This document shows, piece after piece, positions 12,587 through 40,163 of a stretch of 40,163 nt of DNA (position 1 is its first letter; the number at the start of each line of letters is the position of its first letter). The stretch lies in assembly GCA_036005065.1 (NCBI GenBank), contig DASYQW010000054.1, forward strand, positions 1 to 40,163, written 5' to 3'. Source of the DNA: Candidatus Methylomirabilota bacterium. Lineage in GTDB: Bacteria > Methylomirabilota > Methylomirabilia > Rokubacteriales > DASRDR01. A program made the translations under genes and the position numbers. The notes below the pieces were generated by a model. It was given only the letters and a program-made list of their open reading frames with translations, was not told where the DNA came from and did not search any database.

Positions 12587-12982
12587 ATGGAGATCCAACC
12601 CGGCCTCGTGGGAGAGATCGAGATCGTGGTCCAGCCCCAGGACACGGCCGATGCAATGGGGAACAAAGGGGTGCACGTGCTGGCGACGCCACGTCTGGTC
12701 GGCCTCTTCGAGGAAGCCGCCATCACGGCCGTCCAGTCCCACCTGCCGGCCGGAGCCGGCACCGTGGGGACGCGGATCGACGTCCGCCACCTGGCCGCCA
12801 CGCCGGTCGGCATGCGGGTCCGAGCCCGCGCCGTCCTTCGCGAGGTGGACGGCCGGCGTTACGTCTATGACCTCGAGGCCCACGACCAGGTGGAGAAAGT
12901 CGGGGAGGGGACGCACGAGCGGTTTCAGGTCAACCAGGCGAAGTTCCTCGAGCGCATCGCCGAGAAAGCCAATCGCCGCTAG
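12587..12982 (+). CDS. FlK-like hotdog acyl-CoA thioesterase
   Basis: The 131-aa single-domain protein fits the hotdog fold of the fluoroacetyl-CoA thioesterase FlK family. Thr34, Glu42 and His68 have exactly the spacing of the FlK catalytic residues Thr42, Glu50 and His76, and Gly61 falls where FlK has Gly69. The position equivalent to the FlK lid residue Phe36 is Gly28, so specificity for fluoroacetyl-CoA is not expected. It would hydrolyse a short acyl-CoA in the cytoplasm. ATG 12587 has GGAGGAGG 8 bases upstream. A two-hairpin repeat begins immediately after the stop codon. Many such proteins are simply annotated thioesterase family; the physiological substrate is unknown. Confidence 0.8.
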   Translation: MEIQPGLVGEIEIVVQPQDTADAMGNKGVHVLATPRLVGLFEEAAITAVQSHLPAGAGTVGTRIDVRHLAATPVGMRVRARAVLREVDGRRYVYDLEAHDQVEKVGEGTHERFQVNQAKFLERIAEKANRR

Positions 12983-13060
12983 GTCATTTCGGGGGGTCTC
13001 GGAAGACCCCCCCGATGCCCCCCCTCGGTTGCGGCGGCAAAGCCGCCGCTCGGAGCGGGC
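12983..13060 (+). repeat. Two-hairpin intergenic repeat, copy 1
   Basis: The element begins directly after a stop codon with GTCATTTC. Hairpin 1 has arms 12991-12999 (GGGGGGTCT) and 13004-13012 around the loop CGGA. Hairpin 2 has arms 13031-13038 (GCGGCGGC) and 13042-13049 around AAA. A second copy follows the next gene at 14148, and the first half recurs on the minus strand at 40069-40111. No T tract is present. Confidence 0.8.
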
Positions 13061-13127
13061 GACAGCCACGCGGCGGTTCGGCCGCACAGGGCGAGCGGAA
13101 TCCGATAGCCTCGGAGGAGGCGCGGTG

Positions 13128-14147
13128 ATGGCAGCGAAGTCGAGCGGCGGCCGGAAGGCCGGCATCCTGGAGCGGCTCAAGCGCGGGGTCGTCCTCGGGG
13201 ACGGCGGGTACATTCTCGAGCTCGAGCGGCGGGGATACGTGCAGGCCGGCCCCTACACGCCCGAAGTCGCCATCGAGCATCCCGAGGCGCTCCGCCAGCT
13301 CCACGAGGAGTTCCTGCGGGCCGGCTCCGACGTGCTGCAGGCCCTCACCTTCTACGCGAGCCGCGACAAGCTGGCGACGGCGGGCTACGGGGGCCAGATG
13401 GAGGCCATCAACCGCGCCGCCGTCCGCATCGCCCGCAAGGTGGCGGGCGACGAGGCGCTGGTGGCCGGAACGCTCTGCATCACCTGGCAGTACCGGCCGG
13501 GCAGCGCCCAGGCCCGGGCCCGGGTCCGCCGGCTCTTCGACGAGCAGATCGCCGCCCAGGCCGCCGAAGGCGTCGACTTCTTCATCTGCGAGACGCTCCA
13601 CTACGTGGGGGAGGGCGTCCTGGCCGCCCAGGCCATCAAGGCCGCCGGCTTCCCCGCCATGGTCACGCTCAACTTCAAGGCCACCGAGCAGAGCCTGGAC
13701 GGTCACGGGCCCGAGGAGGTCGCCCGCATCCTGGTCGAGGAGGGGGCCGACATCGTCGGGGCCAACTGCGGCCGCGACCCGGCCCATCTGCTTCCCATCG
13801 TGGAGAAGATGCGGAAGGCGGTGCGGACGGGCTTCATCGCCGCCCAGCCGGTAGCCTATCGCGTGCGGGAGGACATCCCCTACTTCATGGGGCGGCCCGA
13901 GTTCCCGCTCGAGCTCGACCCGCTGACGCTGCCCCGGGGCGAGATGGCGGCCTACGCGGTGAGGGCGCGCGAGGTCGGCGTGGACTACATCGGCGCCTGC
14001 TGCGGCACCGTCGCCGCCCACATCCGCGCCATGGCCGAGGCGCTCGGGCGGCGGCCGGAGGCGAGCGCCAAGTCGCCGCGCCTCGAGAAGCACCCGATCC
14101 TGGGGACGCCGAAGAGCTTGAAGGGCCGCGTCACCACCGGGCGCTGA
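13128..14147 (+). CDS. Homocysteine S-methyltransferase family protein (betaine-homocysteine methyltransferase-like)
   Basis: The 339-aa protein has the zinc site of the Pfam homocysteine S-methyltransferase barrel: Cys214 in GANC and the pair Cys291-Cys292 in GACCGT, as in BHMT. Residues 20-30 (GVVLGDGGYILELERRGY) match the N-terminal strand of BHMT-like proteins. The family transfers a methyl group from betaine, S-methylmethionine or another donor to a thiol, normally homocysteine, in the cytoplasm. No cobalamin or folate domain is attached, so it is not MetH. The dimethylglycine-dehydrogenase-like operon 4 kb away makes betaine an attractive donor, because dimethylglycine would be the product; this is inference. 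ATG 13128 has GGAGGAGG 8 bases upstream. Two copies of a hairpin repeat flank the gene directly. Confidence 0.85.
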   Translation: MAAKSSGGRKAGILERLKRGVVLGDGGYILELERRGYVQAGPYTPEVAIEHPEALRQLHEEFLRAGSDVLQALTFYASRDKLATAGYGGQMEAINRAAVRIARKVAGDEALVAGTLCITWQYRPGSAQARARVRRLFDEQIAAQAAEGVDFFICETLHYVGEGVLAAQAIKAAGFPAMVTLNFKATEQSLDGHGPEEVARILVEEGADIVGANCGRDPAHLLPIVEKMRKAVRTGFIAAQPVAYRVREDIPYFMGRPEFPLELDPLTLPRGEMAAYAVRAREVGVDYIGACCGTVAAHIRAMAEALGRRPEASAKSPRLEKHPILGTPKSLKGRVTTGR

Positions 14148-14230
14148 GTTTCAAATCGGAGGGGGTGTCGGAACACCCCTCCGAGACCAGAGGATCGTTG
14201 CGGCGGCAAAGCCGCCGCTCGAAGTGGACC
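14148..14230 (+). repeat. Two-hairpin intergenic repeat, copy 2
   Basis: It starts right after the stop of the methyltransferase gene. Hairpin 1 has left arm 14156-14168 and right arm 14173-14184 (ACACCCCTCCGA), again around CGGA 14169-14172, with one bulged G. Its stem sequence differs from copy 1 on both arms so pairing is kept. Hairpin 2 (14200-14207 / 14211-14218, loop AAA) is identical to copy 1. Confidence 0.8.
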
Positions 14231-14258
14231 AGCGGGGACATGGCTCGGCAAGTGTGAC

Positions 14259-14286
14259 CGCGAGGGCCCTGGGCTCGCGCTTTTTT
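14259..14286 (+). terminator. Rho-independent terminator downstream of the methyltransferase gene
   Basis: A CGCGAG / CTCGCG stem (14259-14264 and 14274-14279) with a 9-base loop is followed by C and six T (14281-14286) on the plus strand. It lies 112 bases after the BHMT-like stop codon, beyond the repeat copy, and before the convergent CoA-transferase gene. Confidence 0.6.
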
Positions 14287-14336
14287 CACGGGCCCGAGCT
14301 GGACCGGAGGAGGTCGTCGAGCCCCTCCGGGTGATC

Positions 14337-38901: not shown

Positions 38902-40056
38902 GTGGACGCGCAGCCCTTCCGGGTCCGGATCGCCGAGGAGGTCCTCGCGGATCTCCGCGAGCGGCTCCGCCGCGCGCGCTGGCCGGACGAGGTCCCGGGA
39001 GCGGGCTGGTGCTACGGGACCGACCTGACCTACCTCCGGCAGCTCGTCGACTACTGGCGGGACCGTTACGACTTCCGCCCTCACGAGGCCCGGCTGAACG
39101 AGTTCCGCCAGTTCACGGTCCCGCTGGCCGGCGTCGAGCTGCACTTCATCCACCAGCCAGGCGTGGGCCCTCGCCCGCTGCCCCTGCTCCTGTCACACGG
39201 CTGGCCGGGCTCCGTCTGGGAGTTCCACAAGCTCATCCCCTTCCTCACCGATCCAGGGCGGTTCGGCGGCGACCCGGCGGACGCCTTCACGGTCGTGGCT
39301 CCCTCGCTGCCCGGCTACGTCTTCTCGTTCCGCCCAGGTCAGCCGCGCCTCGGCGTCCCCGAGATGGCCGACGTCTTTGCGACGTTGATGGCGGAAGTGC
39401 TCGGCTATCCGAGATTCGGCGCCCAGGGCGGCGACTGGGGCGCGTTCGTGACCTCCCGGCTCGCCGTCACTCACCCGGATCGACTGGTCGGCATCCACCT
39501 GAACCTTCTCCCGCTGCGGCGGGAGATCCCGCACCCGGCCACGCCGACCGAGGAGGAATCGCGGTATCTGAAAGAGCTCGCGCTGTGGCTATGGGAGGAA
39601 ACCGGCTACCAGTGGATCCAGGGGACGAGGCCCCAGACGCTCGCCTACGCGCTCACGGACTCGCCGGTGGGACTGGCGGCCTGGATCGTGGAGAAGTTCC
39701 GGAACTGGAGCGACTGCGGCGGCGACGTCGAGCGCCGATTCACCAAGGACGAGCTTCTCACCAACGTGACGCTCTACTGGGTGACCGGCGCGATCAACTC
39801 GTCCTTCTGGCCCTACTACGCGCGCTACCATCAGGGATGGCCGCTGCCCGAAGGGGTCCGCATCGAGGTCCCCACCGCCTACGCGGCGTTTCCGTGCGAG
39901 ATCCTGCGCCCGCCGCGCGCATGGGCCGAGCGCGTCTTCGACATCCGTCGCTGGACCCCGATGCCGGCGGGCGGCCACTTCGCCGCGATGGAGGAGCCGG
40001 AGGCGCTCGCCGCCGACCTGCGCGCGTTCTTCCGCGGGCTGCAGCCCCGGGACTAG
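38902..40056 (+). CDS. Epoxide hydrolase (EHN domain plus alpha/beta hydrolase)
   Basis: The 384-aa protein has the N-terminal epoxide hydrolase domain (about 4-110, FRVRIAEEVLADLRERLRRARWPDE) followed by an alpha/beta hydrolase. The oxyanion motif HGWPGS is at 99-104, the nucleophile Asp178 in GGDWG, and the catalytic His359 in GGHFAAMEEP; Tyr residues of the cap (WPYYARYHQGW) fit the proton donors. It opens epoxides to diols using water. No signal peptide is seen. The start is GTG 38902, 14 bases after the DUF1015 stop, with no good ribosome site; coupling to upstream translation is likely. A repeat copy lies just beyond the stop. Confidence 0.88.
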   Translation: MDAQPFRVRIAEEVLADLRERLRRARWPDEVPGAGWCYGTDLTYLRQLVDYWRDRYDFRPHEARLNEFRQFTVPLAGVELHFIHQPGVGPRPLPLLLSHGWPGSVWEFHKLIPFLTDPGRFGGDPADAFTVVAPSLPGYVFSFRPGQPRLGVPEMADVFATLMAEVLGYPRFGAQGGDWGAFVTSRLAVTHPDRLVGIHLNLLPLRREIPHPATPTEEESRYLKELALWLWEETGYQWIQGTRPQTLAYALTDSPVGLAAWIVEKFRNWSDCGGDVERRFTKDELLTNVTLYWVTGAINSSFWPYYARYHQGWPLPEGVRIEVPTAYAAFPCEILRPPRAWAERVFDIRRWTPMPAGGHFAAMEEPEALAADLRAFFRGLQPRD

Positions 40057-40068
40057 CCGTGCCACGAC

Positions 40069-40111
40069 GGGGGGGCATCGGGGGGTCCTCCGAGCCCCCC
40101 CCGAAATGACC
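40069..40111 (-). repeat. Two-hairpin intergenic repeat, copy 3 (first half, inverted)
   Basis: Read on the minus strand from 40111 it gives GGTCATTTCGGGG..., the same opening as copy 1, then a G-rich/C-rich hairpin (40104-40097 with 40085-40078) keeping CGGA in the loop, and GATGCCCCCCC as in copy 1. The second hairpin is absent. The rest of the window's right end (40112-40163) shows nothing I can name. Confidence 0.7.
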
Positions 40112-40163
40112 GAGGAGGCTGTCGGAGTAACCACGCTCCGCAGCTTGCCCAACCGCCCACGGT

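Follow-up and report, generated by a model that had tools for sequence, protein, structure and literature searches.

Two structured repeats lie directly behind stop codons on either side of a gene for a homocysteine S-methyltransferase (BHMT-like; 13125-14147, + strand) in a Candidatus Methylomirabilota genome, which raises the question of whether such elements serve the RNA of the genes they follow or reach gene ends for another reason. The window, meaning the whole 40,163-nt stretch of DNA that was analyzed, contains both on the + strand. Copy 1 (12979-13116; covariance model match 12976-13059) opens with CTAG at 12979-12982, of which TAG at 12980-12982 is the stop codon of a FlK-like thioesterase gene (12587-12982). 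Its left part is of the type that we call B and comprises hairpin 1 (CGGGGGGTCT-CGGA-AGACCCCCCCG, 12990-13014, with the loop CGGA at 13000-13003), a C-tract (13018-13024) and hairpin 2 (GCGGCGGC-AAA-GCCGCCGC, 13031-13049). The copy occupies the gap from the thioesterase stop codon to the ribosome-binding region of the BHMT-like gene, and its right end is approximate, being a degenerate terminus GGAATCCGATAGCCTCGG near 13098-13114 matched by eye against TTACTCCGACAGCCTCC. Copy 2, of type A (14144-14298; model match 14141-14228), opens with CTGAG at 14144-14148, of which TGA at 14145-14147 ends the BHMT-like gene, itself outside the element. It continues with hairpin 1 (TCGGAGGGGGTGT-CGGA-ACACCCCTCCGA, with one bulged G, 14156-14184) and hairpin 2 (14200-14218), and its right end, TTTTTTCACGGGCC-CGAG, is a degenerate version of TTTCACGG..CTGAG. 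These positions agree with a sequence-only reading of the DNA that had placed two copies just behind stop codons, and hairpin 2, which that reading had described as common to both, is identical in the two, within an enclosing 31-nt stretch that is 94% identical. The further claim that hairpin 1 is altered on both arms between the copies was borne out with small corrections: GGAGGGGGTGT faces ACACCCCTCC in copy 2, leaving the bulged G, and six G face seven C in copy 1. Folding of copies 1 and 2 beat all 200 shuffles (z -3.2 and -3.9). At 14264-14287, the tail of copy 2 contains a terminator-like hairpin with T6, and shorter T-runs are found there in other A-type tails.

A third, inverted partial copy had also been proposed. 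Its arms span 40069-40114 and are 80% complementary, and it proved to be the left part of a minus-strand B-type element (GGTCATTTCGG, hairpin 1 and C-tract), truncated before hairpin 2 and adjoining the stop codon (40054-40056) of an epoxide-hydrolase-like gene. On the minus strand it directly follows, in tandem, the tail (TTACTCCGACAGCCTCC; 40114-40132) of another element, whose stretch at 40114-40163 runs toward the contig end. Several contigs of the host assembly, including this one at 40114-40163, end a few hundred bases or less from an element, as would be expected of repeats that break the assembly. The suggestion that the BHMT-like gene could be gained or lost by recombination between its flanking copies is unsupported, because these differ in type (B and A) and because a relative that is 86% identical, found in a different gene context in another Rokubacteria genome (locus L143), has the gene with no element after its stop codon; given that different context, some movement of the gene is conceivable. 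The closest named relative judged by this gene is a metagenome-assembled Candidatus Rokuibacteriota genome (86% protein identity).

The copies belong to a family of non-coding elements of about 130-155 nt, in which two to four GC-rich hairpins lie between two fixed ends (GGAGNSTGTCGGAGTAA / GTCATTTCGG). Three main types occur in the host. Type B runs from CTAG-GTCATTTC through hairpin 1 (loop CGGA), the C-tract and hairpin 2 to a tail ending TTACTCCGACA..CTCC-TAG. Type C opens with CTAG-NTCAT-GGGAGGGGGCC..GGCCCCCTCCC, followed by a C-tract able to pair with the G-tract behind it, hairpin 2 and a B-like tail, and type A consists of CTGAG-..-CGGAGGGGGTGTCGGAACACCCCCTCCG, hairpin 2 and a tail ending TTTCACGG..CTGAG. 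Further stem variants, for example GCGCCGGC..GCCGGCGC, are present in other genomes. Compared by eye, the two ends resemble each other weakly (TCGG at an offset) and do not form clear inverted repeats, and CTAG or CTNAG is missing from a number of right ends and from a few left ends. The C-tract that follows hairpin 1 (13018-13024 in copy 1; CCTCCCCC in type A) mirrors the 3' arm of the hairpin. A triplex between hairpin 1 and this mirror-image tract was considered and rejected, since one subtype (C26_m13480) combines a changed arm with an unchanged tract.

A covariance search of the host and related genomes had been proposed as a check on the sequence-only reading. The host genome comprises 5.63 Mb in 419 contigs, of which our sample covers about 1.13 Mb of stretches together with 45 further loci that were added as top-scoring matches. 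With a model built from 43 host copies, 91 copies were found in 1.126 Mb of the host at E<=1e-4, which extrapolates to about 450 genome-wide. The hairpin 2 pattern, with up to three mismatches, occurs at 306 sites in the genome, and its reversed control at none. Within the order (Rokubacteria), 59 of 60 genomes gave matches to the model, as did 1 of 35 from the other orders of the class. The element was not found in viral contigs (searched with two exact patterns), phages or plasmids. Rfam gave no match at the gathering score, and the sole match at E up to 1 was sub-threshold and lay inside the BHMT-like gene; we found no report of repeats in Rokubacteria in the open-access papers searched. 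This appears to be a repeat family that spans a whole order of uncultured bacteria and is undescribed in Rfam and in those papers. The sequence-only reading had staked its case on three points, and on each the result is in its favor: copies are expected to number several hundred in the host, they are not scattered at random inside genes, and paired substitutions are in excess.

The stem structure is conserved, with covariation far beyond chance. An alignment of 127 distinct copies has pairing in 97.9% of cells; shuffling gives 90.0 +- 0.3%, and sliding the partner column gives 45-58%. In all, 131 cells are changed on both sides, compared with 39 +- 4 in shuffles; this alignment was fitted to the covariance model and so favors the structure. 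A MAFFT alignment agrees, with double changes in 7 of 16 pairs, and direct tabulation shows whole arms swapped. The ratio of G.U to A.C mismatches in hairpin 1 is 20:9 in the host, 5:15 in the related genome G035 and 13:2 in G026. There is no consistent strand preference, and the structure may therefore be conserved at the level of single-stranded DNA.

In the host, the elements lie between genes. A purpose-written codon-usage caller supplied the gene calls, whose stop codons should be reliable and starts less so, and none of 143 host copies lies within a called gene. Where a same-strand gene lies on the left, hairpin 1 starts 0-12 nt past its stop codon in 83 of 99 copies, and TAG is 2.6-fold over-represented at those stops (49/83 compared with 194/856, or 22.7%, genome-wide; p about 1e-12). 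Inverted copies also abut stop codons, by way of their other end, and in 13 of 48 host copies the right terminus coincides exactly with the stop codon of a gene on the opposite strand. The motif at the junction depends on type: 12 of 17 B copies are at CTAG, which marks 8.5% of all gene ends, and 9 of 12 A copies are at CTGAG, which marks 16%. Among copies with a recognizable right end, CTAG is present at both ends in 22 of 77 in the host and 15 of 32 in G026. CTAG is itself 12-fold depleted in the host sample (252 observed, 3002 expected from base composition); 89 of these sites are at stop codons, 124 are intergenic and 39 are inside genes, some of the stop and intergenic sites having been made by the elements themselves. 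Since CTAG is so depleted and so rare in genes, insertion at CTAG would be nearly confined to gene ends and gaps, and a preference for CTAG/CTNAG targets accounts for the stop-codon position of the elements. The placement most likely reflects the near absence of the landing sequence inside genes. Because CTAG is palindromic, one such site can supply the stop codons of two convergent genes, and this would explain copies with a stop codon on both sides.

Related species differ in how many elements they carry and where, some of the per-genome counts being lower bounds. For example, in genus g22 there are no copies in G045 and at least 150 in G035, and in genus g11 there is one copy each in G014, G016 and G051 and 67-68 in G026. 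One G035 element, inside a MITE with terminal inverted repeats (TIRs), separates two genes that in G045 are 4 nt apart with a CTAG stop. A G026 element separates genes that almost abut, stop to start, in G054, where the flanks are about 91% identical, and that overlap in G014; at a third G026 site, the G054 version of the element has lost part of its interior. At two sites compared between G035 and G048, both species are occupied, by different element subtypes, through either replacement or separate insertion. Tandem insertions with a common CTAG also occur in the family. The G045 contigs inspected for empty sites gave one extra block, which was uninformative, and unoccupied orthologous sites are too unclean for a base-by-base reading of the presumed TA or TNA duplication. 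The TIR-bearing MITE of G035 (L235, L236, L211, L194, L237) is a separate repeat of 105-300 bp with inverted repeats GTGCCGTTCCAAxTTAC, often flanked by CTA..TAG, and it is found both empty and with the hairpin element inside; the host sample lacks this repeat motif. G026 contains a further repeat, about 112 nt long (L241, 17118-17231), that is missing at the orthologous G054 site and has many matches in G014, G016, G051 and G054, making it a candidate second mobile repeat family.

No autonomous partner or transposase was found in genome-wide searches for Y1_Tnp (RAYT) and PF13340, and the 1.13-Mb host sample contains no repeat of insertion sequence (IS) size. Y1_Tnp is absent from the host and from the element-rich genomes G035, G048, G026, G025 and G005; it is present in 11 of 59 genomes of the order, with three matches in the element-free G045, and does not track copy number. 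The IS5-type orfA PF13340 occurs in 2 of 59 genomes. In one of these, G015 (L217), an IS5-type IS at about 942-2465 has the inverted repeat GAAGTCATTTCAAAACC and directly adjoins a hairpin element at about 842-940. Like many of our elements it has CTAG at both ends, and GTCATTTC is common to its inverted repeat and the B-type left end, but the B-type right end does not match. The resemblance is suggestive and marks a lead, not membership.

Several readings compete for these observations. The sequence-only reading took the paired changes as selection for RNA structure, for example in an mRNA 3'-end element. The paired substitutions are strong, but an mRNA 3'-end element should keep a fixed orientation relative to the upstream gene, and in co-directional gaps we counted 58 forward and 53 inverted copies (p=0.70; host 49/34, G026 9/19), with no net bias. 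In its broader form, this reading holds that hairpins behind the stop codon protect the 3' end, stall terminating ribosomes, as reported for Escherichia coli REPs that lie 15 nt or less from a stop codon, or bind a protein, and that mobility merely spreads them. The spacing from the stop codon, the stem covariation and the avoidance of divergent gaps (4/132 compared with 67/349 in a background that includes element-holding gaps) are all consistent with it, as is the report that these E. coli REPs lower translation (PMC12306157). A symmetrical effect is possible, since hairpins work either way round. Yet inverted copies meet the stop codon with their other end, G.U is not consistently in excess over A.C mismatches, and some congeners live without, or nearly without, elements, so that we judge this reading unlikely as the main explanation. 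A role as intrinsic terminators that act in both directions, between convergent genes and between successive ones, would fit the enrichment of convergent gaps (45/132 compared with 38/349 in the same background) and the T6 hairpin in the tail of copy 2. However, that site is weak, 0.5 terminator-like sites are expected by chance in that stretch, and no T-run follows hairpin 1 or 2, most copies having none; in G035 and G026, moreover, elements separate genes that nearly touch in relatives and are seemingly operon neighbors. We consider a terminator function quite improbable.

Alternatively, the elements could be classical REPs, in which a Y1 tyrosine transposase resident in the genome mobilizes palindromes of the GTAG type. 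GTAG and CGTC REPs occur as hundreds of intergenic palindromes near gene 3' ends, preferring co-directional and convergent gaps and avoiding divergent ones; the ends of GTAG REPs often provide a TAG stop codon to flanking open reading frames, complementary stem variants occur, and CGTC REPs are also found without a transposase (PMC3733652). The Rokubacteria family shares with them its high copy number of several hundred, intergenic location near gene 3' ends, complementary stem variants, TAG stops and a conserved tetranucleotide adjoining a hairpin. In contrast, a REP is a single palindrome of 20-40 bp, whereas our element has 130-155 nt and at least two hairpins, its boundary is CTAG or CTGAG (CTAG/CTNAG at both ends in many copies) with no GTAG or CGTC tag, and neither the host nor the rich genomes named above encode a RAYT, which makes this reading very improbable. 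In their distance to stop codons, the elements recall the E. coli REPs found at 15 nt or less (PMC12306157 and its reference 17); about 11% of predicted E. coli REPs come so near, compared with 84% of host copies that have a same-strand upstream gene. Integron attC sites were also considered and rejected, as the copies are scattered and show no conserved AAC/GTT boxes.

We consider it highly probable that the family consists of non-autonomous, MITE/REP-like mobile repeats that target CTAG/CTNAG. Bacterial MITEs are short, non-coding, high-copy repeats with a target motif repeated at both ends and variable presence between relatives. Our elements are likewise short, non-coding, dispersed and present or absent between relatives, with the target motif at both ends in many copies; they depart from MITEs in that their ends, weakly alike, show no clear terminal inverted repeats, internal hairpins dominate, and the searches for Y1_Tnp and PF13340 gave no autonomous partner. 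We class the family with non-autonomous repeats of a MITE/REP-like kind and not with REPs proper. We infer that transposition would proceed by insertion at rare CTAG (types B and C) or at CTNAG, mostly CTGAG (type A), and would seemingly double the core (TA or TNA), leaving neighboring genes with their stop codons. With CTAG nearly limited to stop codons and intergenic DNA, insertions there would be tolerated, which would explain why copies sit exactly behind stop codons. The stems may keep pairing by compensatory change either because a putative enzyme recognizes the folded single strand or because one arm of the hairpin DNA serves to correct the other. Lasting presence across the order with conserved stems could also signify a benefit to the host, and a secondary RNA role is possible. 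We hold with little confidence the further idea that an undescribed enzyme of this mobile family reads folded single strands and targets stop codons (CTAG/CTGAG) as safe harbors, the hairpins then becoming orientation-independent 3'-end or inter-operon structures of the host.

These results suggest that orientation should be tested before stop-anchored, covarying hairpins are read as RNA regulatory elements. They also make two questions testable: which enzyme mobilizes REP/MITE-like repeats in genomes that lack a RAYT, and whether hairpins behind stop codons affect the expression of the genes they separate. A simple rule would account for the locus: avoidance of CTAG leaves the target motif almost solely at gene ends and gaps, and structured repeats would thereby come to lie precisely behind stop codons.
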